Source: Jacaranda mimosifolia (Eukaryota; Streptophyta; Magnoliopsida; Lamiales; Bignoniaceae). From it: a stretch of 64,000 nt of DNA. The translations under genes were made by a program, and so were the position numbers. Below, in pieces: positions 12,783 to 42,747 of the stretch (position 1 is its first letter; the number at the start of each line of letters is the position of its first letter). The notes below the pieces were generated by a model that was not told the DNA's origin, ran no database searches, and was given only the letters and a program-made list of their open reading frames with translations. The DNA lies in assembly GCA_018894105.1 (NCBI GenBank), contig CM032124.1:6309501-6373500 (forward strand). The letters run 5' to 3'.

Positions 12783-12956
12783 ATGCCCCTAAATATCCCT
12801 ATGGCCAATATTGGTTGCTCGTCGTGCAAGCAGCGGCTCAACCGGGACAACGATGGCGATGACGATGACGGATATGACCATGTGCCTGCTTATGCAGAAG
12901 GCGATGGCGATGGCGATGACGGTGATGGAGATTATGATTATGCTCCGGCTGCTTGA
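12783..12956 (+). CDS. IMA: IRON MAN (IMA/FEP) peptide, copy 1, intact
   Basis: Encodes 57 residues, usual for this family of about 50-80-residue single-exon peptides. The diagnostic C-terminus is GDGDYDYAPAA, preceded by an Asp/Gly tract (residues 40-50). In other plants IMA peptides move between tissues and bind the BTS/BTSL haemerythrin E3 ligases through this tail. That spares clade IVc bHLH factors and raises iron uptake. Residues 1-21 are variable and carry a CSSC pair at 12-15; no signal peptide is visible. Residues 26-36 (DDDDGYDHVPA) look like a second, degenerate copy of the tail. The first ATG (12783) is chosen because copies 2-5 start at the same place; a second Met at codon 7 is also conserved in all but copy 3. 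A longer frame (12648-12956) only extends into the leader. Confidence 0.9.
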   Translation: MPLNIPMANIGCSSCKQRLNRDNDGDDDDGYDHVPAYAEGDGDGDDGDGDYDYAPAA

Positions 12957-13113
12957 TCATACGATCATCTTAAATATCTAAATTTTGTAAGTTTTGTAGG
13001 CCATGATGATATATCCTAGCAACAATATGTAAAGATGTAAGCTCTCTCTTACCATGAGATGAATGAAATTCTTGTTTTGGATCATTTGAAATAGTAATTG
13101 GAAGAAAAAGAGT

Positions 13114-13554
13114 CCTTACAAAAAAATATAATATTAATGACAAAGTAAAAATTGTCACTAATAACATAATATATTGAGTTACAATAGCTTTTATCTTATC
13201 ACTAATGATCAATTTTTAAGTGACAAGAATTGTTATCATATTACAACATGGTTAAATAGTGACAAAAATTAATATTTTAAGCTGCCACTATTAACAATTA
13301 GCTAGTGACATTCCGATGGTGACAACTTAGTGACAATAAAAATTATCACTATAATTCGTGACAAGATTTTCATTGTCACAGTGTGTTACTAATTGTCTAT
13401 GGTGACAACTTTAACATTGCTCTTGTCATTATTTAATTTGTAAAAATCATTAAGGTGACAAAACTAAATTTTTTGTTACTAAATATACATAATTAGTGAC
13501 AATTTTTTATTGTTACTTACTAATTTATCACCAATTTATCTCTTTCTTGTAGTG
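13114..13554 (-). mobile_element. CACTA-type MITE (GTGACAA family), copy 1
   Basis: Ends CCTTACAAAAAA (a decayed CACTAC) and TCTTTCTTGTAGTG. The flanks are AGT at 13111-13113 and AGT at 13555-13557, a 3-bp target duplication as in CACTA elements. The interior is built from many GTGACAA/TTGTCAC words. It is the reverse orientation of the copy at 15054. It lies about 160 bp past the stop of IMA copy 1, near its likely 3' end. Confidence 0.85.
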
Positions 13555-13557
13555 AGT

Positions 13558-14779
13558 TCTTTATTAATTGCTATGATAAGCAAAGTCTAAGTTGTCCTAA
13601 CCTAACAAGTAAGTAGGATTTCTTTCTTTTGGTAGAATGGTAGGCGACTCTATGGCGACTTATATAATGTTGTTTTATTGAATATTTTCGTCTAAAATTT
13701 TTATTTATTTATTTTTATCCCAACTCAATGAAATAAAATGGAAAATCTGTAATTTTTATCTTGTAATTTTGTTTACTTTGTAATTTCATTTTACAATTCA
13801 TAAAATTATAATTTTAGTCCTGTATATATCAAATATGTATCATATTTTGCTCGATTTTTGTCGAAACTTCAAAAATTTGACGTGCATGCCAACTAGGCAA
13901 AAAACCCCAAATTGAACCCACTCTGGCGTGCCGATTCAACTTTTTAGGCTATTGTTTGGAATTCTAGTAAAAATTGAGCTAAATGTAATAAATTTTTAAT
14001 ATATACAAGATTAAAATTGTAATTTTATAAATTATAGGACAAATTTGCAAAGTGGACAAAGTTAGATAATGAAAAATATAGTTTTCTCAAATGAAATTAT
14101 ATGACTTATTATGGACTCATTGAATATGATTTAAAAACTAGTTCATTACAAGTATGAAACGCTATATATAAAGCATTGCCACGAGATTTTCGCGGACAAT
14201 TGATTATATTAATAGATATAAGCATTAAAAAGAAAAATTAAGTGGAAAAGATTTGAAATTAATATCTTACTTTGTTCATGCATGTGATTAGATGTTGATG
14301 ACATATTAGTTTGTTGACGTTTGATTTCTTAAGACAAACATTATATATTAAAAAAATGTTGACAGGAGACGTACAACAATATTCTTTTATTTATATAAGT
14401 AGTGTTAATTAATTGACTTTAAGCTAAAAGTTTTTCTTTGTTCAAATCTTTGTGATCGTGTGGGATCCTTGACTTGACAAGCAGCTAATGGGGCCACAAA
14501 ATACATAATATATAGTATATTTTAACATTAAAAGATTAAGAAATAACCAAAGTTATTTTATTACATTTACTTTATAAGCTTATTGTCAAACATTCCATTC
14601 ACAAAATAAATATATATATTTTTTGAATTGTAAGTTTTATTTTCTGAAAACATATTATAAAATGCATTAGGTTATAAAACCTTTTCAATAGATTTAGCTC
14701 AATATCTTCTTAATATGAAACGAAAAGAATTAGCTAGTAATTTTGGTAATTTTTTTACAGTAAAATTAATCATAGAAGT
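13558..14779. other. AT-rich intergenic sequence, no gene seen
   Basis: No supported frame, RNA gene or repeat partner was noticed apart from scattered AT microsatellites. Blocks near 14160-14480 (AAGTGGAAAAGATTTGAAAT, GTTGACAGGAGACGTA) resemble 33950-34200, so part belongs to the upstream side of the duplicated peptide-gene segment. Confidence 0.4.
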
Positions 14780-14967
14780 TGTGATGCCCCATCCCACATG
14801 GACTAAATATTGAAACAATGAGTACTATATCTTTTGGTTAAAGAACTCATGTGCATCCATTGAATATCTTTTTTGGTCAAATTGGTTATAGCTTAATTCT
14901 AAGATACACTCGATGGGTTTAGAAACAATTCTTCCTTCCAACGGGCTAGCGGGCCCTAGGTGTGACA
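14780..14967 (+). repeat. TRIM 5' LTR
   Basis: First of the paired terminal repeats; primer-binding-like site follows after two bases. Confidence 0.75.
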
Positions 14968-15053
14968 AATGGTATCGAAGCCAATCACTAGTCGAAATGT
15001 AGAGATCTAAGTGCTATAAGGGACAAAGTGTTATGCATGTAGGGGCCACCTCT

Positions 15054-15505
15054 CACTACAAGAAAAAGATAAATTGGTGACAAAAGAGTAAGTGACAATA
15101 CAAAAGTTGTCACTAATTATATATATTAGGCGACAAAGGATTTAATTTTGTCACTTTAATAATTTTTACAAACTAAATAGTGATAAGAATAGTATTTAAG
15201 TTATCACCATATATAATTAGTGACATATTATAGTGATAATGAAAATCTTGTCACAAATTATAGTGACAATTTTTATTGTCATTAGGTTGTTACTATAGAG
15301 GGTGTCAGTAATTGTTAATGGTGACAACTTAAACCATTAATTTTTGTTACTATTGAGTCATATTATGGCAAGATAAAAATTATTGTCACTGAAAAACCAT
15401 CATTAGCGACAAGATAAAAACTATCGTCACTTAATATATGATATTAGTGACGACATTTACTTTATCACTTTTTTTTTGTCATTAATATTATATTTTTTTG
15501 TAGTG
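15054..15505 (+). mobile_element. CACTA-type MITE (GTGACAA family), copy 2
   Basis: Begins CACTACAAGAAAAAG and ends TTTTTTTGTAGTG. TCT lies on both sides (15051-15053, 15506-15508). The GTGACAA-rich interior matches copies at 13114 and 18936. It sits inside the TRIM interior, so it is younger than the TRIM. Confidence 0.92.
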
Positions 15506-15629
15506 TCTTGAATCTGCTGGACGAAGTGCTATACATGCGGAAGAAATCTATAGATCCCAACGTCTGGTGACTGATCTTGGATTTGTGTCAAGCCACAATG
15601 AGGATGTCGCATTCTAAAGGAGGGGTGAT

Positions 15630-15819
15630 TGTGATACCTCATCTCACATGGATTAAATAATGAAAGAACAAATACTATATAAGCTTTGGTCAAAGAATTC
15701 ATGTGCATTCAGTGGATATTCTTTTTGAACAAATTGATCATAGCCCAATTTTAGAATGCACTTAGCAGTTTTGGAGGCAATTCTCAGTTCTAAGGGGCTT
15801 GCGGGCCTAATGCATGATA
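15630..15819 (+). repeat. TRIM 3' LTR
   Basis: Second terminal repeat; preceded by the AAAGGAGGGG polypurine tract. Confidence 0.75.
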
Positions 15820-16440
15820 GAATTTGGAAAAAAAAGTATTCTAAAAGTCAGTTTTAAATGTGAATGGAAATACTGAATATAAATAATAACTAATTAATCA
15901 ATTCAATATCCTTTATTAGAAAGTACCAAAATTTTGAGAATGGGGTCAAGCATAGGTCCCACCTTAAATATGATTAGGGTTTGACTGTCTGTGACATTAC
16001 TATTTGACATAGTATCCCCTAAAGATAGGTTGGTCCCGAGTTCCCCTATATGCTTTGGCAGAGCCAGGGGAGATTATTAATAGAAGGATTTATGCAGTCA
16101 TATTTAATATTGATCACAAATTATAGAAAAATTATCAATTTTTTCATTTTCAAATGTTTCATCGCATCAAACTAAATAAATATAGCAAAAAAAGAATCCA
16201 AATCTTTAGCTCCAGTCATCGAATTGAAGCATGCATTTTTCCTTCAAAGTTAAAAATTTCAAATAATTTTAATAATTGATAAATTTTTAATTTTTTCATA
16301 ATAGTTAAAAGAGTAAGTGATTAACCCATAATAATTGCTAAAGGATTTAAAATACTTGACAAATAAAAGTGCTAATACATCTCAAATCATTAATTCCCCA
16401 AAACTAAAATGCATCTCAATTGATATATCATATATCTTAC
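15820..16440. other. Intergenic sequence upstream of IMA copy 2
   Basis: No gene is visible. From about 16270 it aligns loosely with the region before copy 1 (12030-12330), marking the left edge of the direct duplication of copies 1 and 2. Confidence 0.5.
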
Positions 16441-16449
16441 CATGTGGAA

Positions 16450-16781
16450 TAGAATATCATGTGCTACTTTCCAAGATTTCATGACCCCCCACCACACCAT
16501 TTGCCGCACACCCGTCACTTACCCCAACCCAAAGCATGTCCCCCACATAAAACCCACTCTATATCTCCAATTTTCCATCCACCTGTCATCATAATTTCCG
16601 ACGTGGCGGAGCCACCGTGGCACCACCTGTACTCCTCCAAGCACAAACACAAGATCCGCCACGCGCAGCCTTACGCCGGAGCAATGCCCCCCACCTTTTT
16701 CCGCCGTTAAATATCAAAACCCATTCAAGCCCACATAGTTCATTTCTTCGATCCCACTACTCCCTCATTTTTAATCATCAA
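16450..16781 (+). promoter_or_regulatory. Promoter-like region of broken IMA copy 2
   Basis: Carries the same ordered blocks as copy 1, including GACGTGGCGGAGCCACCGTG at 16600-16619 and CACGCGCAGCCTTACGCC at 16660-16677. A TATA-like TTAAATAT lies at 16708-16715. The region has not decayed faster than the coding part, so transcription may persist. Confidence 0.45.
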
Positions 16782-16939
16782 ATGCCTCTCAATAATATCC
16801 CTATGGCCATTGCGTGGTCCACTTGGTGAAAGAAGCGGCCCGATCGGACGACGATGGCTATGACTATGCGCCTACTGTGCATGCAGAAGGTGATGGTGAC
16901 GACGACGACGGAGACTATGATTATGCTCCGACAGCTTGA
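16782..16939 (+). pseudogene. IMA: IRON MAN peptide, copy 2, broken
   Basis: The ATG aligned with copy 1 opens only 15 codons and meets TGA at 16827-16829, where copy 1 has TGC (Cys15). About 20 nt further on, one G of CGGGAC is missing, shifting the frame. After the shift the reading frame is clean to TGA at 16937-16939 and still encodes the family tail, GDGDDDDGDYDYAPTA, with APTA replacing APAA. An internal GYDYAPT block is also retained. No in-frame ATG precedes the tail because TAA intervenes at about 16793. As assembled it cannot make the peptide by ordinary initiation. Two apparent errors could instead be sequencing mistakes. Confidence 0.8.
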
Positions 16940-17318
16940 TTCATACATATAAATTGTATACTTAATTTAGGAAATTAATTAGTTTGAAGAGGATTGATCC
17001 AAATTTTTTGTAAGTTATGGGCTATGATGATATTAGTTTTTGTCGGAGATTTATATGTCCTAATAGATTTGAACTCTCTTTTCATGCATTATGAGGTGAA
17101 TGAAATTCTAGTTTATCGCATTGATCACCACAATAGTCCCAACTTGTAATCTAACATGTATTGGAATTGGGAATTTCTTCATTTGGTCTTACATCATGCT
17201 ATTACTTTGGAGGAATTTTTATTATTTTATTTTGGACATTGACTTGAAAAATCCAAAGTCTTGATATTTAATTTTCACAATAATTATATTTTTTTTCATT
17301 TTTACGCCCTCGTCTTAG

Positions 17319-18753: not shown

Positions 18754-18935
18754 TATCTTGAAAATTGGCAACCAAGATTTTATCTATTCTTTGATGGTGG
18801 GCCGACGCTATATAATATTGATGGATATTGTTAAAGAAGTTAGTTTTTGTTTTCTTTCTTTCTTTTTTTCTTCTTTTATTTGTACACGCTCACATCGGGT
18901 TAAGAATTTATTAGTTTTAAATTTTGAACTTCACA

Positions 18936-21129: not shown

Positions 21130-21297
21130 ATGGCCCTCATCCCTATCGCCATGGGGTGCTCCTGGTACAGAAAATACCTCTGGAATACTGATCATGTTCA
21201 TGATGGATATGATTATGTTATAGCTGCACATTCAGAAGGCGATGGTGATGGAGATGACGATGACGGCGGAATGTATGATTATGCTCCTGCTGCATAA
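21130..21297 (+). CDS. IMA: IRON MAN (IMA/FEP) peptide, copy 3, intact
   Basis: Encodes 55 residues ending DDDDGGMYDYAPAA, the IMA tail that in other plants binds BTS/BTSL ubiquitin ligases. The Asp-rich run GDGDGDDDD (37-45) may also favour metal binding. Residues 25-33 (DGYDYVIAA) look like an internal repeat of the tail. The N-terminus (MALIPIAMGCSWYRKYLW) has one Cys and aromatic residues, with no clear signal peptide. The start is the first ATG after the TATA box, in the CAAAAATG context common to copies 3-5. A longer upstream frame (from 20863) is promoter sequence. The nearest genuine genes are copy 2 (4.3 kb left) and copy 4 (15 kb right). Function is inferred from the tail; identity as an IMA is strong. 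Confidence 0.92.
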   Translation: MALIPIAMGCSWYRKYLWNTDHVHDGYDYVIAAHSEGDGDGDDDDGGMYDYAPAA

Positions 21298-22185: not shown

Positions 22186-22190
22186 GAGAT

Positions 22191-22813
22191 TATCAGAAAC
22201 TGTGAACTCCCAAGAGTGAGAGAAAAGCAATGCAAACTATGACTAGAAAAATAAAATGTGCTTATTATTTACACAAGAGATAAAGGGTTTATATAGAGTA
22301 CAACTACGCCCTAACTGCACTACTACAAAAGAGAGTTTTTGAGGCTATTCTTTTTGTCTTTAAAAGCTTGAAAATTATTTCTAATACATATGGAGGCATT
22401 TGGAGAAATAGTCTTCAAAGTTGCAATTGCAAATTCTATAGAGGTCATTTTATAGATTGCTTTTATATAAAATAATAGAGGCATTTTTTTATTCTTTAAG
22501 GGCTATTTTACCATCATTTATGGGCTATTCCAATATGTGCCTTTGTACATAGGCCTCCAAATAATTTATAAGGGCAATTAATACTAAATTGCCCAATTAA
22601 ACTATTATTGGTGATTATTTTAAAATATGCCTTCATATATTTGCCTCAAGTTATATAGTTTTGTTGTAGTGCTAATGTGTAAAAAACAGCACTGAATGAG
22701 GCTAACAAACTAACTACTGGATACAACTAAGAACTTTCCAAAAATATATACAAAGATACAAAGAAAATATACAAGACACAAAAAGAATTAAAAAATGATT
22801 CTATCATCTAATA
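22191..22813 (-). repeat. Copia 3' LTR with nested MITE
   Basis: About 269 bp of LTR once the MITE at 22318-22671 is removed. The minus strand starts TATTAGATGAT and ends TGATA, not the usual TG..CA. Confidence 0.88.
22318..22671. mobile_element. CACTA-type MITE inside the copia LTR
   Basis: Ends CACTACTACAAAAGAG and AGTTTTGTTGTAGTG. Flanks are CTG (22315-22317) and CTA (22672-22674), a 3-bp duplication with one change. The other LTR (near 27236) is uninterrupted and reads CCCTAACTAACGTG. The interior differs from the GTGACAA family. Confidence 0.88.
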
Positions 22814-23239
22814 CCACCCCTTGAAGGTGGACGATGTAGATTGCGGACAGGCAGCTTGGACATTAAGTAAGTGAGAGAAGGGAGTGGCAAGGCTTTTGTG
22901 AGAAGGTCAGCAAGTTGATTGATGGAACGAACTGGTAGAAGCTTGAGAAAACCATCAGTGAGCGTTTCACGGACAAAATGACAATCAAGTTCAATGTGTT
23001 TCATCCGTAAATGGAAGATCGGGTTGTTGGCAATGTGTATGGCAGAGTGATTATCATAAAAGAGAAGTGCGGGAGCATGTATGAACGGGGACTTGGAGAT
23101 TTGTAAGGAGATGTTGGAGCCAAACAAGTTCATTAGCGGCCGAACCAAGTGCACGGTATTTCGCCTCAACGGATGAACATGAAACAGTGGTTTGCCATTT
23201 GGATTTCCATGAAGTATAGAGTGACCAAGGAATGTACAA
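22804..23239 (-). pseudogene. Copia RNase H region remnant
   Basis: Two overlapping minus frames encode WKSKWQTTVSCSSVEAKYRA, the copia RNase H signature with SS.EAEY-like core (here SSVEAKYRA). LLTNLQVPVHT and then a DNHSAIHIANNPIFH.R.KHIE block follow in a shifted frame. That is the usual C-terminal end of copia pol. A frame change near 23100 breaks it. Confidence 0.85.
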
Positions 23240-23353
23240 AAACCAGTAGTGGACTTACAGGATTCTGGGCAAGAGGCCCAGTGAGAATCAGCAAAGGCAT
23301 AAAGTTGGAGAGGTGAGTTAGCTGGAAAGAAAAGGGACTAACTAGGGGTAGAT

Positions 23354-23827
23354 TTAAAGTAATTTGAGTAGGTGATGAGCAGCATGAAGATGGGTGGTGC
23401 GGGGTTGTTGCATGAATTGACTAAGTTTATAGATAGTATAGGTTATGTCGGGGCGAGAAAGAATGAGGTAGAGAAGACGACCAACTAGACGGCAATATTG
23501 AGTAGGATTGAAAAGAAGATCACCATCGGTGGAGTTGAGGCGAAGTATAGGGTCCATAGGGGTATGTGCAGGTTTATTGGCAAGGAGACCGGTATCTTCA
23601 ATTAGTTGTAAAATATAGTGACGCTGTGAAAGGAGAATACCATATTCATTTCTAGCAATTTCAAGACCTAGGAAATATTTCAAGGGGCTTAAGTCCTTGA
23701 GCTTGAAGTGTTGTTGGAGATGAGTGATAAATTTGCTGATGAGAGTGAGCGAGGGGCTAGCCAAGATGATATCATCAACATAAACTAGAAGGACGATAAG
23801 AGAAGAACCAGAGAAAATGGTGAACAT
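23354..23827 (-). pseudogene. Copia reverse transcriptase remnant
   Basis: 157 open codons with the catalytic box LLVYVDDIILAS (YVDD) near the N-terminus, then LKDLSPLKYFLGLEIAR and QRHYILQLIEDTGLL, all standard in plant copia RT. A stop and sequence loss separate it from upstream RT (23830-24350), where recognisable but frameshifted RT sequence continues. Confidence 0.9.
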
Positions 23828-24985
23828 ACTATGTCGGCTTGTGAATGTCGAAAACCAAGTTTAAAGAGGATCGAGGAGAGTTTGGCATATCATTAGCAGG
23901 AGGCCTACTTGAGACTGTAAAGAGACTTGTGAAGGCGACAGACTAATCGGGAAGAAGAGGATTGTTGAGGAATAGTTGGAGTGTAGCTGAGAGGAAGCTC
24001 CTTGTAAACCTCTTTGAAGATATCACCATTAAGAAACGCATTATTGATGTCAAGTTGTCGAAGGTGCCATTTAATTATAGAAGCTAGAGCAAGAAGTAGT
24101 TGGTAGGTAGTGAGCTTAGCAACTGTTGAGAATGTATCAAGGAAGTTGACTCCCTCCTGTTGAGTGCAACCTTTGGTAATGAGTCTAGCTTTGTGTTTGT
24201 CAAGGGAACCATTTGCACTATACTTACTTTTAAAAATCTAATGACAACCTATCACATGTTTATTTGGTGGAAGAGGAAGAACAATCCATGTTTGGTTGGA
24301 TTCAAGGGCCTTCAGTTCAGTAAGCATTGCTTCTCTCCACTCAGGATATTTCACAGAATAGAGATGTTTAATAGAAGATTTTTGTGAGTGTTGGAAAAGG
24401 AATTATAAGAAAGGAAATGGGATATGGGATATAGTCTAGTATCTTGGGTTGGTTGATCATGAAAGAGATGACAATGATATTCTCTAAGATAACTCAGAGG
24501 CTTAGTGACACAGGTGGTGTGCCGAATGGGTTGAGGAGAATGAGTGTAGACAGGAGATGGGGAAGCATCTTTGAAAGGGAGTTGGGAAGGAATATCGGAT
24601 AGAGAGGAGTCAGTGTAGATATTATGTGCAGGCATGGGGAGGACAAGGTTAGGAAAGGGATCGCTGACTGGCACGGGTGGAGAGTTGGTATGGAAAGGAA
24701 AGAATTTTTCATGAGAAATGACATGGCGGGATAGAAATATTTGTTTAGTGTAGAGATCAAACAACTTGTAACCTTTTGTGGCTGTAGGATATCTTAGAAA
24801 AACATATACATGAGCTCTAGGATCAAACTTGCGACGATTAGCATGAAGGGTGGACGCATAAGCTAGATAGCCGAAGGTGCAAAGATGACTATAATCGATT
24901 GGAGTTTAGTAGGGCACTTTGAACGGAGTCTTATTATTAAGGATTCTGGTTGAGGTTCAGTTAATAAGATAGGTAGCAATGAGAA
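23828..24985 (-). pseudogene. Copia pol linker and N-terminal RT, frameshifted
   Basis: Short minus frames (24351-24764) contain LYTKQIFLSRHVISHEKFFP, the copia region between integrase and RT, followed by a Pro/Ser-rich linker. Several frame changes and stops are present. Confidence 0.7.
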
Positions 24986-25500
24986 TCATTTCATGCCACA
25001 TGTGTATAGGAATATGGAACTAAAAAAAGAGCGCCCCAGCAACATTAGGTAGATGCTGGTGTTTGTGTTCAACAACATTCTATTGAGGGGTTTCAGCACT
25101 TGAAGTTTGATGTATGATGTGAAGCTTATGATAGAAATCTGGCATAAAGAACTCTTTAGGATTATCGTTGCGAATTTTCTTAATTGAACTATTGAATTGA
25201 TTAAGAATGAAGGTGTGAAACCTGGACAGAATGTTGGGAACTTCAAACTTCATTTTCATTAAGAAAACCTAAGTAAACTGAGTACAATTATCAACTAAGG
25301 TGAGGAAAAATGTGTGGCCTGTGTGTGGGCGAGTGGAGAGGGGTCTCCATACATCAACATATATGAGTTCAAATGGGGATTGAGCGAAGTGATTATGTGA
25401 TACAAATGGTAAGCGTTTCTGTTTAGCTAGGGGACATATGCAGCATGGGGTTTGGGAATCAATTCTATCAAAGCAAAGAACATTCTTCAAGGCAGTAAGC
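24986..25500 (-). pseudogene. Copia integrase remnant
   Basis: KQKRLPFVSHNHFAQSPFEL followed by YVDVWRPLST is the junction of the GAG-pre-integrase zinc region and the catalytic core; D in VDVW is the first catalytic acidic residue. The core is split into frames at 25269-25490 and 24986-25246. Confidence 0.85.
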
Positions 25501-26149
25501 TTCTAAGAAGAGAGGTGATCGAGCCTGGCATGCTAAATATTGGTCGAGACTTTATTTATAAGACTTGTAGAAGAAGGAGTAAGAGATGTATTAAGGAGAT
25601 ATAGGTCAGCTACGCGTTCATGTTTGCCAATCGTTGTCGAGTTCTTGTTGTCCTGGATGAAGAAGTGATCATGATAGAAATATATGGTCAGATTAGGGTT
25701 AGAACTAGGAAGAGCACTAATAGATAGAAGCTATAGATTGAATTGGAGAATACAGAGGACATTCTTAAGAGTCATAGCACGATTAATGATAACATTTCCC
25801 ATATAATACACAGGAATACTAGTTCTGTTTGGAAGATTAATAGTAGAGTAAATAAATTAGCATGAGAACATATGTGCCGTGAAGTATCGGAGTCCAATAT
25901 CCAAGTGTGATTAGAGAAAGTGAAGTTAGAGTAAGCACATATATCTACTGTGTAGGAGATAGAGGGATCAGTTTCCTTAGATTTGAGCAGATAAGAGATT
26001 GAGTAATTGACCGTATTGGGAAGGAGTTAGGGCTTGGAAAAAGGAATTAGCTCCATCAGCAGGTTGTGTGCTGGAGACTTGATTCACAATAGTAGGAATG
26101 GTAGAAGTAGGTGCCTGTGGTGCTTGATTGTGCTGCCAAAATTTGAAAT

Positions 26150-26225
26150 TGGGGGGGGGTAACCGTGCAGCTTATAACATGTATCAACAGTGTGACCAAA
26201 GGTAGAGCAATGTGTACAATACGGA
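26150..26225 (-). pseudogene. Copia gag zinc knuckle
   Basis: The minus strand reads CTHCSTFGHTVDTCYKLHGY, a full CX2CX4HX4C knuckle followed by YKLHGYP, characteristic of plant copia gag. The surrounding frame is broken. Confidence 0.85.
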
Positions 26226-26753
26226 CGCTCCCTTCTGCTAATTTTGGAATTGGAGGCATGAGAATTATGATTGACTTTGCCTTGTTGTCTGCTAGAATCT
26301 GTCTTAATGGCAAATGTTATGGCGTTGCCAGAATTTGGAGCAGTATTTTGACTGGATTGCGCTATTGTTCTTCTTGAGCAATAAGAGAAAACACCTTGCT
26401 TATGGACAGAAGAGGTTTAGATAGAGGCATTTGACTTCGGATTTAAGCGTAGAAACGACAAAACATACTCACGATTGTAATGATTAGTGAGTTCTTTCAT
26501 ACCACGATAGGAGTACTGAGCACATATGCCGAAAGATCTATAGTTCTGCAATTCTTCCCAAATCGTCTTCAGTTTGGTGAAATAAACACCAACGAAGTTG
26601 TTACCTTGTCTGTGGTTGACGAGTTCTCAGTGAAGCTGAAAGAAGCGCGGTCCAGTGCTTTGCTGAAAATGACCGCACAGATCTATCCAAATTTCATGAG
26701 CTTGCTAGGCAAATAATGCTGGCAGATATCTCTTTGGATACAAAATTTAAGAT

Positions 26754-27074
26754 CTAAGAGATGACAACATTATTATTGCGTGTCCATGCATTGAAAAGTG
26801 CAACATAATTTGGCGATGGTTTCGATAGAGAACCTTCAATAAACCCAAGTTTATTTTTCACATACAATGCTATGGTCATCGCACGGCTCCAAGCGGCATA
26901 GTTATCACCGGTGAGTGGTTGCGAAACAAGCACCAAGCCAAGCGAATCTGAATGGCGAAGAAAGTAGGGATTACAGCTATCATCAATGGTGGATTGATCA
27001 ATGAAAGATGCTGAAGAAGGGGGATTCTGCATGATCGCTAAACAAAGGATAAACGGAGGAGAGAAGGAGTGCAA
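26754..27074 (-). pseudogene. Copia gag N-terminal remnant
   Basis: 106 codons containing LVSQPLTGDNYAAWSRAMTI and KNKLGFIEGS, the conserved start of copia gag, placed just inside the 5' LTR as expected. Confidence 0.9.
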
Positions 27075-27112
27075 AGACAGAAGGAGAAAAGAGAGCTAAA
27101 CTTTCGATACCA

Positions 27113-27393
27113 TATCAGAATCTGTGAACTCCCAGGAGTGAGAGAAAAGCAATGCAAACTGTGACTAGAAAAATAAAATATGCTTATTATTTACACAAGA
27201 GATAAAGGGTTTATATAGAGTAGAGCTGCGCCCTAACTAACGTGTAACAACCCGCATTGAATGAGGCTAACAAACTAATTGCTAGATACAACTAAGAACT
27301 TTCTAGAAATAAATACAAAGATACAAAATATATATATACACACACACACACACAAGATACAAAAAGAATTACAAAATGATTCATCATCTAATA
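27113..27393 (-). repeat. Copia 5' LTR
   Basis: 281 bp, matches the left LTR without its MITE; includes a (TA)n(CA)n tract near 27330-27352. Confidence 0.88.
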
Positions 27394-31300: not shown

Positions 31301-31519
31301 TTGTGTTAGGTTATCGACTAATTAAATATGATGTTGGATGATGAGCAATCTCTGCTATCATAGAACCCCATTATTTAGTTTTAAAAAGGTTTTCAATGGT
31401 TCAACATTTTTCATTATCCATTAGTTTCTTGCCGATATTTTCATCATGATTGGCCTTTTCTTGCATATTTTAGTTTCTCTTTTTATGCTTCATCGATTTT
31501 TTGGCATTGGTTTCTGCAG
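28330..31519 (+). other. Captured 5' region and intron sequence inside CACTA
   Basis: Composition shifts at about 28330 from transposon-like AT to promoter/leader-like sequence. A possible short first exon ends ATGCGAAAG with GTAAAACTG as donor (28724-28741). T-rich intron-like DNA runs to the acceptor TTTCTGCAG at 31519. There are no supported exons between, so upstream exons of the source gene appear to have been lost. SSRs lie at 30463-30494 and 31140-31190. Confidence 0.5.
31023..31108 (+). repeat. 31-bp inverted repeat (hairpin)
   Basis: Arms 31023-31053 and 31078-31108 are complementary with one mismatch around a 24-nt loop that itself repeats GGCCTCTGTATTAA. If transcribed it would fold into a long stem. 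Confidence 0.85.
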
Positions 31520-32842
31520 GAGATGAGACAGGCAGAATTATGGCTGAAGTATCATTTTCGTTGTAGCTGTAAGCGCTGTGATGCAGTGCCTAAAACTTAT
31601 GTGGATTACACACTGAAAGTAAGATCTTCAATAACTTGGAGACGGTTGGTTGAATACATGTATATGTTGGAAGCAAACCTATTTAAAAGATCTTATAAGC
31701 TAAAACGCTTATAGAGCTTATAATATGGTAGATCTATATTGAAAATAAGCTCAAGTATTTGGATAAAATAAAACCGTGTAGTTTATGAGATGTCAATAAT
31801 AGCAAAATTTGTGATTAGTATGATTAAAATCAAAGGAGTTGGTTAATACATAAATAAGTTAGGAACTCATTACTTTTTCTATAAGAACTTATAAGATCCT
31901 ATCTTATTTTGAGAATTTATAAGTTCCTCTCTTAGAAAATTTTACCAAACACTTTAATATTTATAACATCTGATAACCTCACCTAAACACCATCACAGTA
32001 CTTTGTGATGCACTTGCCACTTTGTTGATGCTTTAAGCCCTTCATTGAGACTGTGCTTATGACCATATATGCTTAACTTGTTCCGTTGCCTCTGTAGGCA
32101 CAATCTGCTGCCACTCCTACTCGGCCAGAGTCTCGAGACAATCAAATAGAAAAACTGATTGAAAGCTTCGATGATGCAATGACCGACTATCCATCATCCG
32201 GTGATTCAAATCATTCTGTAAGAAGCTTGAAAACTTGCTCACTCATGGCCACTTAAGCGAGGAATCCGTAGAAAAAATGGAAGCAAAATCACCTGAAAGA
32301 CCGAAGCTGCATCCGTTTCATTATCTTTCTCTAAATGCTCACAAGACCCTGGCTTCTGCTTATAAAGTTCAGGCAAGTGATTAATTGCTCTTAATTATGA
32401 AATCGAAAGACATGAACTTGAAGCATTCAACATGTACAAGACAAGTGCTGCATATTCCTTGTTGCTTGCTGGGGCAGCCCATCATCTTTTCATGTTTGAA
32501 TCTTCTCTTGTGGCGACTGTTGCAAATTTCTGGACAAATGCTGGGGAACCAATGCTGAATCTTGCTAGAAGCACCTTGTGGGGTTCATCCTAGAATCCAT
32601 GGCCAGTCCATTGTTGTCTCGGAGATATTTTGGAACCAAATTCTATTAGCCCAGATCAAAATATGCAGTTAGAGGAAATAAAGAATCAACTTTTTGATTG
32701 TATTGCCGATATAACACCAGAAGTATGGGGGATACTGTGTTCTGAAAGTAGTTTCTTGAAATCAATACAAAACCCAGTTGATTTTAGTTGGTCTCCATCT
32801 GAGAAACTATTATGTGGAAGAGTTATCTTGCAAGATGACTAG
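31520..32842 (+). pseudogene. SET/TPR methyltransferase-like gene fragment captured by CACTA
   Basis: Exon 31520-31618 (33 codons, flanked by TTTCTGCAG and GTAAGATC) encodes MRQAELWLKYHFRCSCKRCD, the post-SET Cys cluster of SMYD-like proteins. An intron runs to CTCTGTAG at 32097. The next exon (32098-32842) gives SFDDAMTDYPSS, HPFHYLSLNAHKTLASAYKV, SAAYSLLLAGAAHHLFMFES and a C-terminal part at 32630-32842. This resembles the C-terminal TPR region of plant SET-domain proteins of the Arabidopsis At1g33400 type (from memory, not searched). Single-base frame changes near 32220 and 32378 and a TAG at about 32592 break it, and the SET core is missing. Retained introns show capture from DNA, not from mRNA. 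Confidence 0.75.
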
Positions 32843-35519
32843 TTAAATATGATGTTGGATGATGAGCTGGTGTATATGCTATTTTATAGCATTAATTTTG
32901 GAAAAATAACAATTTATCTATAAATTTGTATGAAAATAGCCATTAATATGATGATTAGAGACAAATTATAGATAGAATTAAAGACAATTTTTAGATAGAT
33001 CAAAGGTGATTCATAAACGAATTTGAAGACGGAAACGAAGAGAATTTTGAGACAAATAATGGGTAGTTTGAATATAAAATTGTTACTTTCAAAGACAAAT
33101 TTGAGATAAATTAAAGACAAATTTTAAGACAAATTTACCAACGAAACTCTCACAAAAATGCTTACGGGATTTAAGACAATTTGAGACAGAATTAAAGATA
33201 GATGCATTTTCCAAATTGAAGATGATCAGTCGTTATTTAAGATGAAAATTGAGATGGAAAAAAATCCATCTTAGAATTTACCAATGAATTTTTTCCGTCT
33301 TGTGGATTAGCCATGGTGGCATCACCAACATATTTTGAGACGAAAATTTTCGTTTCAAAGTTTAATTTGAGACAGAAAATTAGAATATAGAGATGGATTT
33401 TTCCGTCTCTGAAGCCCAATACTCTTGTAGTGCCAGATATTTCTTTAACGAGATTGTAGGTAAAGGACTGCATATAAATAATAATTTTTATTTTATCATT
33501 AAAAATTTATTAAAAATAAATAATAATGTGAAATTCATCAATAATAATATTATCCTGATAAAGTAATGATTCCTTTGTGAGTAAGAAGTACGTGTCGAAA
33601 TTTTTTGAAAGATTATATCACTAATTGTTTGAGAAAAAAGAAATAAAAAAGTGCTAAATTTATTTATCTGAAAAAGAAATCATATAACAAAAGGATTTTT
33701 TTTATATAAATGTACGGGCACATATATAGAAATTCATGATATTAGCTTCTTTATCTTTTTGTAAGTTTTTGTTGGTCAATCATTCAATATTTTTAGTCCC
33801 TAGTCCGTACCCATGCTCAGTGATAAAAATAAAATCCTTCTTATAAATTCATTTGAAATAATTTAAATTTAATTTATAACCATTAAACGTAGAAGATGCC
33901 TTAATATTGAAATTTTAATTTCATGGAGAATTATATTAACAGCATTAAAAAAAAATTAAGTGGAAAATTAAGGATTTGAATCAATATATAATATATATCT
34001 ATCTATATCTTATTTTGGTCATGTGATGAGATGTTGGTGACATATTAGCTTGTGACGTTTTCTTAAGACAATATTAAAAACAAAAAAAGAAAAGAAAAGA
34101 AAAGTTGTTGACAGAAGACATAGAACAATATATTTTTTATTATTTAATTTAAATATTCAATTAATTGACATTGAGCTGAAAAATTTTACTTGTTGCATGA
34201 AATCTTTGCTGTTGTTGCGTGGAAATAGGTAGCAACTGCGGCCACATAAAATATACGTACATAGTGTATATAATCTGTTATTAATTAATTAAAAAAATAG
34301 AGAAAACCAAGAATAGTTAATTTAACCCATTTACCTTGGCTTTATAATGTTTAATTGGAGTCGTTTTTGTGCTCTATTTTTTATCGACGAATGAATATTA
34401 TACAAAAAAATTTGACGAATACTTTTAAAATAATTTTAGTAAAAATTCTTCGACAATCAATTTAATAAAAATAAAAAAGTATAGTACTTATTCTCAAATA
34501 TCAATAAAAGTGATAAATGGATACCTTAAGTTGGTTGCTGAGCAAATATTTATAGTATTATCATATAATTTATCCGTGTCATGATTTGAAGGTTTTTGAT
34601 GTAATATACTGATATTTATTGATCATAGCTTACAATTTAAATAGTGAATAAAGAGAATATGACTAGCATAAAAATATTCTAATTCTTATCATATTTAGAC
34701 ATTTTTAAATATATATATAACAGAGATATTTTGATCTTTTAATCATTGCATCCATATCGAATAAAGTAATAATAATAAAGAAAGAAAGATGTTGATATAA
34801 GACGGAGTGACACAATTTATATGATTGTTGAACTTGACTTGACAAGCAATCAATGCATGTGCTCATCTAGCAAGTAGAAAATTAAAGTTTAAGAAGAAAT
34901 ATTCACTTATAAATTGGAACTTTCAAAAATAGAGAAATTGAATTGATATGAGGATTTAAAATTTAATTTTGGATTAGTCTAACATTAGGTCACACCAAGA
35001 TGAATCATATTAATGTTAAAATATTAAGTGATAACATAAAAATTATCATTATAATGGCATGTATTGAAAGATTAAATATGTCAAAGAATAATAATTTTTA
35101 TTTTACTAAAATTATAGTTTAATATATAATGATAAGAACTAGTAGATTAAGTTGCCACCATTATAATGACATATTTCTAGTGATAATAAAAGTTCTCAAT
35201 ATAATTCTTCATAAAACTTTTGTAGCCACTGTACAGATATTACTAACTGTCAATCATGAAAAATTTAAGCATAATTCTTAATACTATATATTAAGTTTGA
35301 AAAAAAAATTAATATCGTGACAAAATAATTTTTATCGCTTATAATTAATTTTTTAAAAAATATACCCAATATTAACTACTTCTCAAAGACATGTTAGACA
35401 TGTCTTCAACCACACCGATATCATGTCAAAAGATTTTTCATTGAACTTTTAAACATGCCAACCTTCTGTTAGATACATATCAACATCACACATATATATA
35501 AATATCAAGGCATTGTAGA

Positions 35520-35811
35520 ATAACATCTATCTTATGCTACTTTTTCTAGATTTTTAATCCTATCATGAGGAAAACCCAAACCCCACCACATAATTTTCAA
35601 ACATTCCTTAACCAAAAAGATACCACTTTTACTTTTTCCACCCAAAATATTAGGGAAAAAAATGTGTATAATCTCGCATGGCACCCCAATTTCCGACCTG
35701 GCTGGAATCAATATGGCGCCACAGACAATCGGCTTCGGGCGTTGCGCATACTCCAGACACTTCACACGCGCAAACCCTAAGCAACCCATTGGCACCACTT
35801 TTTCCAAGGGT

Positions 35812-35867
<56 letters not shown>

Positions 35868-35987
35868 GCCTGTGTTTATCATCCCCAATTTAGACCCCTT
35901 CACACCACCAAAAGCCATATATATTTTCTTCTCACTAGTACTTCTTTTCTTTTCTCTTTTATCTTTTGTCAACTTAAAATACCAAAA
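35520..35987 (+). promoter_or_regulatory. Promoter of broken IMA copy 4, TATA replaced by microsatellite
   Basis: Matches 20700-21129 block for block, with CACGCGCA at 35765-35772. The E-box seen in copies 3 (CACATG) and 5 (CATATG) is GCATGG here. The TATA box has become a (TA)n(TG)n tract of about 55 bp (35813-35867). Confidence 0.6.
35813..35867. repeat. (TA)n(TG)n microsatellite at the TATA position
   Basis: About 12 TA then 15 TG units; the orthologous positions in units A and C hold only TTATATATATGTG. Confidence 0.9.
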
Positions 35988-36995
35988 ATGCCCCGCGTCC
36001 CTATGGCCATTGGGTGCTCGATCGTGGTATGGAAAACAACTCTATGATGCCAATCATATTCATGATGGATATGATTATATTATAGCTGCACATCTAGAAG
36101 GCGATGGTGATGGAGATGACGACAATGACGGAACATATGATTATATTGGATAATTTTGTTACATAAGAATGTATTATATAATGCAGTAGCATAAATTTAA
36201 GCACAAAACTAGTATAAGAGAAATAATTGAAACCTCCAAATAACAAGTAAAGAGTTAGTCAAGAATTCAAACAGGAAGCAATAAACTGAGGGTTAAATAA
36301 ATAGCGAGTCGAGGCCTGCACGAGCACAGCTTCCTTAAGGTTTTATTCGCCTCCCACCGGTGCCTAAGGATTACTGACGAACAACCTCCCAAGATACAAC
36401 GACTCCAAACAACCAAAGGCGGCACTCCTATTGGTTGAACCTCCAAACCTAACTAACTTGAACATCTTGTGTTTAATGGAAAATGTGTATGTATCTATAT
36501 GAAATGAATGCCTAGAATGCTAGAATGCTAGTGTATTATTTTCTTCTAAATGACACTAGACAACACCTATATTTATAGGACTTAAGTGCCTATTCCTATA
36601 AGACATGTGTCTATTCTTGTAAGACATATCCCTAATTCTATCAGACTAAATAAAGGTTGTGACCTTTATTTTAAATTTTAAAAGACATGGGTTGCTACTT
36701 TCTAAGAAATTAGACATGACTATTGGATGAATTAATTTCGGTCTCAATATCCGAAATTTAAAATAATCCTAATAATAATTATATAGAAATATTATTATTA
36801 TCATTGGATTATTGATAGTATATTATTATACTATCCACCTACTTCCATGTCTTAATATAATTTTAGCTAATAGCTCACTTCTTTAACTCAATTTGCTCAT
36901 TCAATAATTTATGAATTTTTGCACTAAAATATCTCCTCAACGAGACAAATTATTTATGTGCTAAAATTCTAACAGATTATGCTCCTGCTACATAA
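35988..36995 (+). pseudogene. IMA: IRON MAN peptide, copy 4, broken
   Basis: The ATG aligned with copies 3 and 5 opens 19 codons to TGA. After GGGTGCTCG an extra four bases (ATCG, apparently a local duplication) shift the frame relative to the other copies. Beyond the shift the family sequence continues (HDGYDYIIAAH, EGDGDGDDDNDGTYDY). It is then cut inside the Tyr-Asp-Tyr codons by an 830-bp insertion at 36145. The remainder of the tail (GCTCCTGCTACATAA, APA-T then stop) resumes at 36981 after a repeated GATTAT. With a frameshift, a lost tail and an altered TATA region the copy is very unlikely to make a working peptide. Confidence 0.9.
36145..36974 (-). mobile_element. 830-bp insertion in IMA copy 4, solo-LTR-like
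   Basis: GATTAT occurs on both sides (36139-36144, 36975-36980). On the minus strand the insertion starts TGTTAGAATTTTAGCAC. Twelve bases inside its far edge lies CTTATGTAACA, so 36157-36974 has LTR-like TGTTA..TAACA ends. There is no coding content. Read as a solo LTR, it leaves 12 bases of filler (36145-36156) unexplained. Confidence 0.65.
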
Positions 36996-38428
36996 TACTC
37001 GTTAGAATAGAAACAAGTTATTTTATTATATGAGTAATAACATGTAGTATATATTAATGTGTAAATTATAGGTCAGAAATGAACCCTAACTTTTGTGAGT
37101 TGTGGGTTGTCATGTAAAATATTGAATGTTTTAGAATGTTTTTAATTATTATGAAATATTAATATATTCTATAGAGCTTAGAACTTTTACATACTACTAA
37201 ACTGAATATTTTCATTTATAATATTGTGGTTGGGAAATGATTAATTTGCTATAAGCACAATCCAACTTGCATTCTAATTTAAGAGCTAGGTACAATTTTC
37301 TAATTATCTGATCTCATGGCATTCATATTATAATTAGTACAAATTTAAGGCACTACACTTTTTAAATATTTGTTAATTCTTAATTTGGTATGGCTCGCGG
37401 CTTCATTACACATGCAATAAAAGTTTGATTAACATTGTAATAAGATATTATTATGTTGAATGAATATATATCACAGCATCATGTACATATGGTTGAGCTT
37501 ATACGAAGAGCTGCTAATAAACGTTAGGAAACTTATACGACTAATTATTCTAAAATATTTCGTACAATTTTCTAAATAAAACATTAGTAGCTAATGAATA
37601 AACTCCTCAAAGAAAAGTAAAACCGTAATTAATAAAATTTTTTGAAACTCCTTTAATTTGATTTTATCATATATAAATTAAAGTACAAAAGTAATAGTAC
37701 TACTTTGCACTTATATCCACACAAATCAAGAGAAAATAAGATCTAAACCTTTATAAATGTGAAAATATTTTGCAAACTCTAAGAAGTTATAAAATGTATT
37801 TTATCCAGATATATATGTCACAAGTCGTTAAAATGATGAATTTCTCAAAAATTTCATACAAGTTAATTTTTTTTAAACGTGGAAAATCTTGTTGATGCGT
37901 GAATTTGAAGCCAAGGTACTAAATTATGGTAATGAAAATTGTGGAGAACACTAACATTTATTTCACTTGCGAATGTACTTTACTGATCTTCAAGTTTAAA
38001 AAAATAAAATAAAACGTTGGTTAATTGGTTAAATGACATTACCCTTATTATCATTGAATATATTATGATAATAAAATTTTTGAGATGCTAATACTTATAT
38101 GTACCTGAATAAGCCCTAATTACGTGTACCAGTGTGAGTAATGAAAATTCAAAAAGAAATATTATTAAGGAAAAAGAACTTACAGACCACCTTGTTTGCT
38201 TGTTTTGACATGTGACATAATCTAATGACGTTCATATCCCATGTCAAATTATATATGTTGCATGAAATCTTTGTTGGCTTGTTTGAGATGATTTTATATA
38301 GTTTTATTAATCAAAAAGAGAATTTTTTCTTTAATTTATTTGACACTTTGAGGGGACCGGCCAATTAAATATGCATGCATGCATGCTTGCAAAATCAGTC
38401 TACATAATATTATTCTATAAAAGTAAGA
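36996..38428. other. 3' flank of IMA copy 4
   Basis: Matches the inverted flank of copy 5 (41800-42576) and, with a 660-bp gap, that of copy 3. No gene is seen. The conserved stretch just after the stop is the probable old 3' UTR. Confidence 0.5.
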
Positions 38429-40266
38429 CTAGCATTATCCCCGTACTATGCACGAATTCTTTAAAATTACTATATATTAATGTAATTATTGAATTATAAA
38501 TATAATTAAAAATAATAATATAAAAATAAAAGCGTTGCAAAAAATGTTCAAGTAATTAGTAAAAATATAAATTTCAGATTATTCAGTGAGAAGTTAAAAA
38601 AATATATATAAACTTTCAAAAATAAAAGTCTATGAATATGATTACATATTTTATTAAACATAAAAAAAATAATATGCAACCAAAAACTAATAGATAGTTG
38701 CATTAAAAAATAAAAGGATATAAAACACAAGATTGATGGCTTAAAAATTGTTGGAAAAGATTTCAAATTACAATACTTTAAGATTATGTTAGACTTAAAA
38801 AACGATGAGTATATATTAAATTAAAACTTAAAATATAAACAATTAGATAATATATTGGCAGCCAATAGTTTAAAAAATTTCTTATTTAATTTTAATTTTT
38901 GAATAAAAATCAATTAAGCGAAGACAAAATTATGATGGCAAAGCAAAAAAAAATTAAAAAAATAAAATAAATATATAAAACAATTATAAAGTTAAAATCA
39001 ATATTAGTATATAAGTTAAACCTTTTATTGACTCGTAGTTTAGTTATCTAATAATTAAGTGAAGAAAAGAGTTGAGAATATATATTGATAAAATAGTATT
39101 TAATATTTTTTAAAATAGTACAAATTATACATTCTTATAATACACTATTACATATATATGAATAAAAAATAAAAATTAAATGACATTCTTTTAAAATATA
39201 AATATTCAAAATGTGAAACAAACTTTAAAAATACCAAAACCAAAAAATAGATCTTATCCTATAAAATTATAAACTTAGATAAACAAAAATAAGAGAAGTT
39301 AAAAATAAATTACAATATCTAACAAATAAATTAATAATCTAATTCAAAAAAATGAGTTAAAGGATAATAAATGTATAACAATTTAAATAAAATAAAAATT
39401 AACTGACAATTTATCAATAATTGAAAAGAAAGATATAACTAATTAAAATAATTAAAATTTAAAAATATTAAGAGCAATTAATATATATATCATGTTATAA
39501 AATTATAAAATTAAAAGAACAAAAAGAAATTAAAAAATTAAAAAATAAATTGATAAATTAAACTAAATAATAAACAAAAAAGATATAAAAATTTACAAAG
39601 TTAAGCTAAATGATAGACTTTATTTATGTTTGAAAAGAAAATAATAATATTAAAATCCATAAAATCTCTTTCATCATGCATGTAACATCCGTAATATAAA
39701 CCCAAAAAAAAAAAAAAAATGAAATCAAAAAAGTGAAAAATAAAATCAAACAATCAATAAACAATTTGAAGAATAAAATAAAGAGGCATAGAAAGAGATA
39801 GATGGAAAAAATGCTAAAAAATAAAGAGGTGCACAAAGAATAGAGTAAAAAAAAATGCTAGAAACTACCTATTAATAAATGACTTTCGAAACACTTTATA
39901 TATAGTGGTATAAATATATATAAATTAGTTATTAAAGATGAGAGCAAATTATGAAAAACTTATCTAGCTATAGAGTTCAAACGATTCAAGAACTTCCACA
40001 TATTGAGAGTAGAGATAAAATAGATTTTTTAGATAAAATAAAATCATTTTTTGGTACTTGGGATAAACAAAGAATAATTTGTTCTAATAAAAAAAAATGA
40101 TTTCAAAAATCTATATATCTTTAAAAGGAATGAATACTTTCAATTTAATTATCAAAAACTAATTTTTAAATCTAATTAAAAAGCTCAAAATTCTAAAAAT
40201 TCAGAATTTGATCAAATTTGCACAATTATGGATCCCACACCATTCTGCTATATATAATAGTATAGA
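38429..40266 (-). mobile_element. Non-autonomous Helitron 3, in unit B
   Basis: The plus strand starts CTAGCATTATCCCCGTACTATGCACG (hairpin CGTAC/GTGCACG region) at 38429 and ends ATATATAATAGTATAGA at 40266. Unit A has no insertion here (22052-22075, AAAAGTAATATAACCATAGG), so the ends are fixed by comparison: A on one side and T on the other, no target duplication, as for Helitrons. The interior is homologous to the copies at 1096 and 3410. AT-rich, no Rep/helicase. Minus-strand frames at 38548 and 39624 are Phe-rich chance openings. Confidence 0.9.
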
Positions 40267-40869
40267 TAATCATAGAATATAATTAATTAGAGAAAGGATA
40301 AAATAAAATTTAATTTTTTGTATGTACGTACTGTAATGTAACATTTATCACATTTAATATAAAAATAATCATTTAATTAATTACCCTTTTCGCTTTAGAC
40401 AGCTGCCATTTTGTTCAATGGAGATTGCCGATATGTATCTTGACCACCAGCCTATGTTTTCTAACATTCTAAAAATTTCTTCATGTAGCACTCAAATTGT
40501 TTAAAATATATTAACGGTTTGATTCCATTTTTCAACTTGATTCTTATCGCTAGTGTATTTTAATTTTTAAATCTAGATATATGTTTAACGAGATTCTTAT
40601 CACTAGTGTATTTTAGTTTTTAATCGCTAGTGTATTTTAATTTTAAAATCTAGATATATCTTTAACGAGATTCTTATCGCTAGTGTATTTTAATTTTTAA
40701 ATCCAGATATTTCCTTAACGAGATTGTAGTTGTGTTCCAACTAAATGACTGCATATAAATAATAATTTTTATTTGTCATTAAAAAATCGCTAAAAAAATG
40801 ATAATGTGAAATTCATCAATAATAATACTATCATGATAAAGTAATGACTCCTTTGTTAGAGTAAAAACA
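40267..40869. other. End of unit B, holding two empty sites
   Basis: Contains the uninterrupted counterparts of the copia site (about 40417) and the CACTA site (40703-40705). A local tandem array of GATTCTTATCGCTAGTGTAT units starts at 40539, 40592 and 40679. No gene. Confidence 0.7.
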
Positions 40870-41530
40870 TGTTGTAAGTGCAAATTTCTTTATCTACAAT
40901 AAATAAAATTACAAGACAAGAAAAATCGTACAAATAAGAATGAAATAAAATCTATCAATTGAGGATCTAATGTCTAAATCTAATTCTCTAATTCTTCCCT
41001 TCCAAATATAATCTTGAAATTTGACGAGCTCCACAATGAATGTCACACCTTGGATTTTCTTGAATTTGATTTGAAATAACACCAATTCGAAGGCTTCACA
41101 CCTAGACCCTTTCAAAGTTTTTTCTGACGTGCTACTAGAATTTGTGTTGCACGTAGAATGAGCTTCGATCACCCTCCTTTATATAGATGTTTGATGGGAG
41201 ACTTTCAAATTGATTTGAACTTCTTTGATGATTATCTTTTAATAAGATAATATCAAATATCAAAAGATAATATCATATTATCAAAATCAGATATCAAGAG
41301 ATATCTTTGATTTGATTAGTTCATAGATGTAGACACTTCATCTTTGACAGTAGTCAATATTTGATTTGAGCATAAAATAAATACTAGAGTATTAATTAAA
41401 ATTAACTATTTTTCTTTTGGAATTAAATTTAATAAATTCAAAGATAAATAGAAAATTTTGAATTGATAACTAGCATATTATTTTATATGTGTCACTTTTC
41501 AATTGGACAAATTAAACAAGTGCATTTACA
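40870..41530 (-). repeat. Ty3/gypsy 3' LTR at the B/C junction
   Basis: The plus strand starts TGTTGTAAGTGC and ends GCATTTACA. Reverse-complemented it matches the LTR at 55396-59287 minus the solo LTR nested there. It carries one copy of the 115-bp unit (GTGTGAAGCC..TTCGAATTGG on the minus strand) where the other LTR has nearly three. Purine-rich AAGTGGAGGCATT (minus) lies just inside it, a polypurine tract, so this is the 3' LTR. The minus frame at 40909-41172 is LTR sequence, not a gene. Confidence 0.75.
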
Positions 41531-41800
41531 AATGCCTCCACTTCAAGGCTTAGCGAAAAATATGTCAATCATCCACGAAAGAAGCAAAACTTAAAATATT
41601 TGAGAAATTTTCCTTTTAATCTCCATTTTGTCAAATATATCTGCGACAAGAAATCTTCCAAGCGTTCCTTAAGCTACGGAGCCATTCTACAAACATGCTG
41701 CACATTGCAGTCAAGAACTATATCTCTTTATGAAATCTTCATGGACTTTGTGAATTGTCAATACTTGGAAATTTTTATAATGAAGTCCTCCCATCGAGTT
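41531..41800 (-). mobile_element. 3' internal end of the gypsy element
   Basis: Non-segment sequence between the LTR and the start of inverted unit C; no recognisable pol motif. The 67-codon plus frame at 41600 has no match. Confidence 0.45.
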
Positions 41801-42576
41801 TGACAAAATATTTTCACATTTATAAAGGTTTAGATCTTATTTTCTGTCGATTTGTATGGATATAAACGAAAAGTAGTACTATTACTTTTGTACTTTAATT
41901 TATATATGATAAAATCAAATTAAAGGAGTTTCAAATTTTTTTATTAATACGGTTTTACTTTTCTTTGAGGAGTTTATTCATTAGCTACTAATATTTTATT
42001 CAGAAAATTGTACGAAATATTTTAGAATAATTAGTTGTATAAGTTTTCGAACGTTTATTAGAAGCTTTTCGTATGAGTTCAACCATATGCACATTATGCT
42101 GTGATATATATTCATTCATCATAATGATATCTTATTACAATGTTAATCAACTTTTATTGCATGTGTGATGAAGGCGCGTGCCGTGCCAAATTAAGAATTA
42201 ACAAATAAAAAGTGTAGTGCCTTAAATTTCTACAAATTGTAATATGAATGCCATGAGATCAAATAATTAGAAAATTGTACCTAGCTCTTAAATTAGATTG
42301 CAAGTTGGATTGTGCTTATAGCAAATTAATCATTTCTCAACCACAATATTATAAATGAAAATATTTAGTTTAATCATAGTATGTAAAAGTTCTAAGCTCT
42401 ATAAAATATATTAATATTTCATAATAATTAAAAGCATTCTAAAGCATTCATTATTTTACATGACAACCCACAACTCACAAAAGTTAGGGTTCATTTCTGG
42501 TCTATAATTACCCAATAGTATATACTACATGTCATTACTCCTATAATAAAATAACTTGCTTCAATTCTAATGAGTA

Positions 42577-42747
42577 TTATGCAGCAGGAGCATAATCATA
42601 TGTACTGTCGTCGTCGTCGTCATCCCCATCACCATCGCCTTTTGGATGTGTAGGTATAACATAATCGTATCCATTATGAACATGATTGGCATCGTAGAGG
42701 TGTTTTCCGTACCACAAGCACCCAACGGCCATAGGGATGAGGGGCAT
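42577..42747 (-). CDS. IMA: IRON MAN (IMA/FEP) peptide, copy 5, intact
   Basis: Encodes 56 residues on the minus strand, starting MPLIPMAVGCLWYGKHLYDA and ending GDDDDDDSTYDYAPAA, the complete IMA tail. Six consecutive Asp residues (42-47) come just before it. Residues 25-33 (NGYDYVIPT) are the internal tail-like motif. It aligns without gaps to the undamaged parts of copies 3 and 4 and is the only intact copy in the inverted unit. The ATG is in the same CAAAAATG context as copy 3, about 130 bp after a TATA box. Antisense and shifted frames across it (42567-43130, 42646-42882) are shadows. Expected role, from the family: binding BTS/BTSL ligases and promoting iron uptake. Confidence 0.92.
   Translation of the reverse strand: MPLIPMAVGCLWYGKHLYDANHVHNGYDYVIPTHPKGDGDGDDDDDDSTYDYAPAA

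Follow-up and report, generated by a model that had tools for sequence, protein, structure and literature searches.

A probable, partly decayed cluster of IMA/FEP peptide genes in Jacaranda mimosifolia

IMA peptides set the strength of iron uptake in plants. Members of the IMA/FEP family are about 50 residues long, carry an Asp-rich C-terminal motif and are widely conserved in angiosperms, and they are modeled as competing with the IVc bHLH factors for BTS/BTSL (PMC10167411, excerpt). A 17-residue C-terminal consensus is common to the family, and Arabidopsis FEP3/IMA1 deprived of its last seven residues, YDYAPAA, showed no interaction with BTSL1 in the yeast two-hybrid system (PMC9226616, excerpt). 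The Arabidopsis genes IMA1, IMA2 and IMA8 correspond to AT1G47400, AT1G47395 and AT1G47401, close locus tags that suggest a local cluster like the one described here (PMC9465050, excerpt).

The window, that is, the whole stretch of 64,000 nucleotides of Jacaranda mimosifolia DNA that was analyzed, has a G+C content of 30.5% and 0 N in the sequence read, and contains five copies of an IMA/FEP-like gene, referred to as c1 to c5 (Table 1). As in Arabidopsis, where the peptides are about 50 residues long, their tail is rich in Asp and IMA1/FEP3 ends in YDYAPAA (PMC10167411, PMC9226616, excerpts), the peptides of c1, c3 and c5 are short, rich in Asp toward the tail and closed by the same seven residues. 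The differences from Arabidopsis, of which only the quoted peptide end was compared, lie in the five copies, two of them broken, and in a decayed internal second motif. We consider it very probable that an IMA/FEP cluster has expanded and partly decayed here, with a type A (c1, c2) and a type B (c3 to c5), the latter multiplied by segmental duplication; three copies are still open.

Table 1. Positions of the IMA/FEP-like copies and associated features in the window
Feature	Position	Strand	Remarks
c1 promoter block with ACGTGGC	12514..12548	+	ACGT at -261; 34/35 bases shared with c2
Copy 1 (c1), type A, open IMA/FEP-like frame	12783..12956	+	57 codons/aa, C-terminus YDYAPAA
c2 promoter block with ACGTGGC	16593..16627	+	ACGT at -181
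Copy 2 (c2), type A, frameshifted	16782..16939	+	YDYAPTA end outside the ATG frame
Copy 3 (c3), type B, open frame	21130..21297	+	55 codons/aa, C-terminus YDYAPAA
Duplicated segment around c4	34259..37779	+	pieces repeated, inverted, around c5 (45817-41796)
Copy 4 (c4), type B, 5' part	35988..36144	+	frameshift near codon 11; insert cuts the tail codons
Insert in c4 tail codons, 830 bp	36145..36974	+	GATTAT at both junctions
Copy 4, 3' remainder as far as the old stop codon	36975..36995	+	flank goes on downstream
Copy 5 (c5), type B, open frame	42577..42747	-	56 codons/aa, C-terminus YDYAPAA

The frames, their tails, the duplicated blocks around them and the way in which c2 and c4 are broken can be read directly from the DNA. 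An earlier sequence-only reading had described five short frames with the tail YDYAPAA or a decayed form of it, and this description holds throughout: all five starts are in place, the tail is exact in c1, c3 and c5, changed to YDYAPTA in c2 and interrupted in c4, and c1, c3 and c5 are open from ATG to stop. From the ATG of c2 at 16782 on the plus strand, 15 codons are read before a stop; the tail belongs to a different open frame (16796-16939), which has no ATG, ends in YDYAPTA and holds GYDYAPT inside. In the alignment, c4 has 4 extra bases near codon 11 compared with c3 and c5, which put its tail out of frame.

Judged by their sequence, c1, c3 and c5 have the hallmarks of IMA/FEP peptides: their sizes agree with the roughly 50 residues of the family, the Asp-rich C-terminal consensus ending in YDYAPAA is present exactly, and they resemble other plant members, the comparison with characterized members being that of the quoted YDYAPAA end. 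A family profile, partly circular in that its 104 retrieved proteins came from a search with window copies as the query (the five copies themselves were left out), scored the five copies at 50.2, 47.8, 46.6, 43.3 and 32.7 bits and the next frame of the window at 5.3, while the best scores in 20 second-order Markov shuffles of the window ranged from 2.9 to 6.2 bits. It could be argued that these are unrelated Asp-rich frames with a chance likeness to IMA, acidic repeats being of low complexity, but the distance between the five copies and the shuffles, together with an exact seven-residue end in three copies, makes such a coincidence extremely improbable. The exact end of c1, c3 and c5 is free of the circularity of the profile. 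No sixth copy was detected in the window, where nothing else exceeds 5.3 bits, or 4.8 bits when the profile includes the window copies. No Pfam model reached its cut-off with the peptides of c1, c3 and c5, and the window contains no Rfam match at gathering scores and no tRNA. Disorder is expected of short acidic peptides.

Two protein searches, each scoring only the 7974 candidates that shared most words, were used to collect relatives: the first took the three intact peptides as queries and yielded 224 proteins at E <= 10 (best 120 of 224 used), and the second took 14 sequences and yielded 286 at E <= 0.01 (best 120 of 286 used). Merged, the matches listed comprise 162 different proteins, the weakest rows of which may be non-members; terminal YDYAPAA is exact in 112 of these 162, and [YF]DYAPAA occurs at least twice in 61 and three times in 16. 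The IMA/FEP assignment made by the earlier reading is supported at the sequence level by the YDYAPAA tails, the profile scores and the plant relatives that the three intact peptides retrieved. By E-value, the best named relatives among the matches listed in the first search were from Handroanthus and Perilla, both members of Lamiales, followed by Rhododendron, with Sesamum lower. In the second search, Rhododendron, a non-Lamiales plant, stood on top of the matches listed, and we count this against the preferred explanation. Taken with the SET DOMAIN GROUP 41 matches given below, the relatives make it likely that the DNA comes from Lamiales or close to that order. Most IMA-like genes of other plants are entered as hypothetical proteins (among the matches listed), one Perilla member bears the unrelated name methylthioadenosine nucleosidase 1, and Sesamum alatum P0121, Lactuca virosa P0122 and Nyssa P0133 each probably represent two neighboring IMA genes fused by annotation. 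As these relatives show, IMA-like genes in annotations can be misnamed and are probably at times fused with their neighbors.

Neighboring locus tags, from which adjacency is deduced, suggest pairs or triplets of IMA genes in Handroanthus, Sesamum, Actinidia and Arabidopsis, and the arrangement in the window is therefore less exceptional than the sequence-only reading had implied. The cluster appears to be a larger case of a known arrangement, with smaller IMA groups seeming to exist in other plants. Among the matches listed, IMA-like pairs with consecutive tags occur in Handroanthus impetiginosus (CDL12_06114/06115) and Sesamum radiatum (Sradi_4066600/4066700). They share the layout of the window copies, with the internal motif mostly decayed, and, by eye, the first member of each pair is type A-like and the second type B-like; of the four members, the three with an alignment are 47-60% identical to c1. 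Two tags are listed in each plant, against five copies in the window, and orthology of the pairs to window copies is unsupported by a tree of 29 proteins made to test the A/B split. In this tree, no starred set contains a window copy, and a split into A and B across species is likewise unsupported; c3 and c5 group at 90/86. Actinidia rufa has an IMA-like triplet (Acr_13g0012900/910/920) and a pair (Acr_11g0005900/910) with consecutive tags among the matches listed, and its peptides, unlike those of the window, carry two or three motifs each, several of them intact. Within each of these Actinidia groups, as within the Handroanthus and Sesamum pairs, the members also agree in the length of the longest contig.

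Within the window, c1 and c2 are 69-71% alike in matching pieces, and c3, c4 and c5 are 84-93% alike. The duplicated blocks of type B take in long flanks, c4 and c5 form an inverted pair, and type B has spread by segmental duplication. By upstream divergence, the closest type-B pair is c4/c5 (0.084), followed by c3/c4 (0.113) and c3/c5 (0.147). A local expansion, as proposed from the sequence alone, is borne out by the duplicated blocks and by the similarity of the copies. Three working copies and a changed dose, which the sequence-only reading also proposed, would be a further step; c3 and c5 are as diverged in their coding parts as in their flanks, and type B lacks the ACGTGGC of type A. In a locus rich in repeats and with an inverted pair, c4 and c5, or all of type B, might also be allelic or misjoined copies created by the assembly; however, even the matching pieces of the copies are 7 to 16% divergent and the insertions are not the same from copy to copy, and this divergence is in our judgment above allelic expectation, so that an artifact is very unlikely.

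The promoters differ between the sub-types. The promoter site of bHLH factors is a G-box or E-box. ACGTGGC occurs only twice in the window on both strands, upstream of c1 and c2, within a block that has one difference in 35 bases, though the upstream regions are only 69% alike overall; since c1 and c2 stem from one gene, this counts as one case and not two. The aligned site reads ACCTGGC in c3 and c4 and ACTTGGC in c5. Other ACGT cores lie upstream of c3 (-556, -484 and -116) and c5 (-549) and none upstream of c4, and AACGTG is found at -557 of c3. CACGTG is absent from the 600 bp upstream of all five starts, and CANNTG sites in the same 600 bp number 6, 6, 1, 0 and 1 from c1 to c5 (raw counts). 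Because of its ACGT core, the ACGTGGC block is predicted to respond to bHLH or bZIP factors and may be regarded as a candidate target of them.

Substitutions give a mixed picture of type B. Between c1 and c3, dN/dS is 0.22 (0.13 in the tail half), and between c1 and c5 it is 0.18 (0.11 in the tail half); for c3 and c5, the value is 0.73 over the whole peptide, 1.63 in the N part and 0.38 in the tail. In each of the three type-B pairs, divergence is higher in the coding part than on either side of it (c3/c5, 0.173 vs 0.147 upstream and 0.085 downstream; c3/c4, 0.193 vs 0.113 and 0.102; c4/c5, 0.136 vs 0.084 and 0.076), an argument against strong selection across the entire peptide in type B. 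These values fit a reading of the same cluster in which only c1 works and type B, free of selection, is in decay, with open frames that are recent remnants; the overall dN/dS of c3/c5, the two breaks in c4, itself of type B, the absence of ACGTGGC and the scarcity of CANNTG sites relative to type A point the same way. Against it, c3 and c5 have both kept the frame and the exact YDYAPAA, and their tail dN/dS is 0.38. A neutral simulation at the rate of the flanks (945 aligned sites with 114 substitutions and 7 indels of frameshift size) left the frame and the exact tail intact in about 10% of the runs for a single lineage and in about 1% for both c3 and c5, copies that had been chosen for being intact. 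Selection on the tails of c3 and c5 is likely, rather than strongly shown, because frame and tail survive so seldom in both under neutrality, and decay of all type B is a possibility to be taken seriously, though an unlikely one. The two explanations differ only in the state of c3 and c5.

The inner part of the peptides contains a second motif, which reads GYDHVPA in c1, GYDYVIAA in c3 and GYDYVIPT in c5, while the terminal motif is exact in all three. Of the Lamiales relatives read, Sesamum radiatum 4066600 has an intact internal motif; in 4066700 of the same species, as in Sesamum alatum, Perilla and Handroanthus 06114 and 06115, this motif is altered. The terminal motif may be the working one, which fits a docking model that has the C-terminal PAA bound to BTSL1 (PMC9226616, excerpt).

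Under the preferred explanation of an expanded, partly decayed cluster, a frameshift broke c2, and a frameshift and an insertion c4, leaving three open copies whose function would follow from membership in the IMA/FEP family. By analogy with Arabidopsis, subgroup IVc bHLH factors would, together with URI, turn the IMA genes on under iron deficiency; the acidic YDYAPAA tails would then take the place of these factors on the BTS/BTSL E3 ligases, and the factors, thereby spared from degradation, would raise iron uptake. With its ACGTGGC block, c1 may be the copy that responds most, and c3 and c5 may be younger copies, possibly weaker or differently controlled. The known mechanism of IMA is unchanged by the cluster, but three open copies with two kinds of promoter, next to two broken ones, make the locus a natural experiment in which copy number and the retained part of the peptide can be studied. 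More speculatively, and with considerable doubt on our side, the locus could hold two regulatory classes, type A having kept the near-invariant 35-bp ACGTGGC block and type B having lost the ACGT core and multiplied, while a two-motif peptide was reduced to a single-motif one that kept only the C-terminal YDYAPAA. If so, type B would respond to a signal other than iron shortage, and the cluster would reveal the number of BTS/BTSL-binding tails that each peptide must carry to serve the plant.

The insert in c4, the inverted position of c4 and c5 within larger duplicated blocks and the decayed internal second motif are additions to the sequence-only reading. The insert is flanked by GATTAT at 36139-36144 and 36975-36980 and, read on the minus strand, runs roughly from TG to CA; because of these ends, it is possibly a solo LTR in minus orientation. 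A repeat comparison of the window detected no second copy of it. The downstream flank of c3 includes a copia element at about 22.2-27.4 kb on the minus strand, a piece of which had, as expected, no match in a plasmid collection. Pieces of a neighboring gene, at about 31.5-32.8 kb, match SET DOMAIN GROUP 41 in a protein search that found 62 proteins. Among the named matches, Vicia faba gave the best E-value (42% identity, 99% query coverage) and Sesamum latifolium the highest identity (59%, with 63% query coverage).

The short inverted repeat in the type-A promoter block, a stretch of 35 bases located upstream of each of copies 1 and 2 of the IMA/FEP-like peptide frames, overlaps the ACGT element. 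Among the type-B copies, copies 3 and 4 flank the exon-like pieces of a SET DOMAIN GROUP 41-like gene, which do not take in the upstream exons of that gene.

Several repeats lie in the same stretch. The flank of copy 3 contains a copia-type element, whose end repeats are 94% alike across 126 bp, and one of the three copies of a repeat family is located downstream of copy 4; a 147-bp tandem pair (5036–5332) occurs inside this family. The 3-kb direct repeat contains short tandem arrays, and parts of 57037–58572 show weaker similarity to it.

Coordinates of features in the window
Feature	Position	Strand	Basis or similarity
GTGGCGGAGCCAC, short inverted repeat in type-A promoter block	12524–12536; 16603–16615		Alignment
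SET DOMAIN GROUP 41-like gene, exon-like pieces	31385–32839	+	Protein matches
3-kb direct repeat, two units	47179–50170; 52037–54940		Units 86% alike
Copia-type element	22191–27393	−	gag and reverse transcriptase domains, end repeats
Repeat family, three copies	1302–5388; 38416–40268		Copies 75–85% alike
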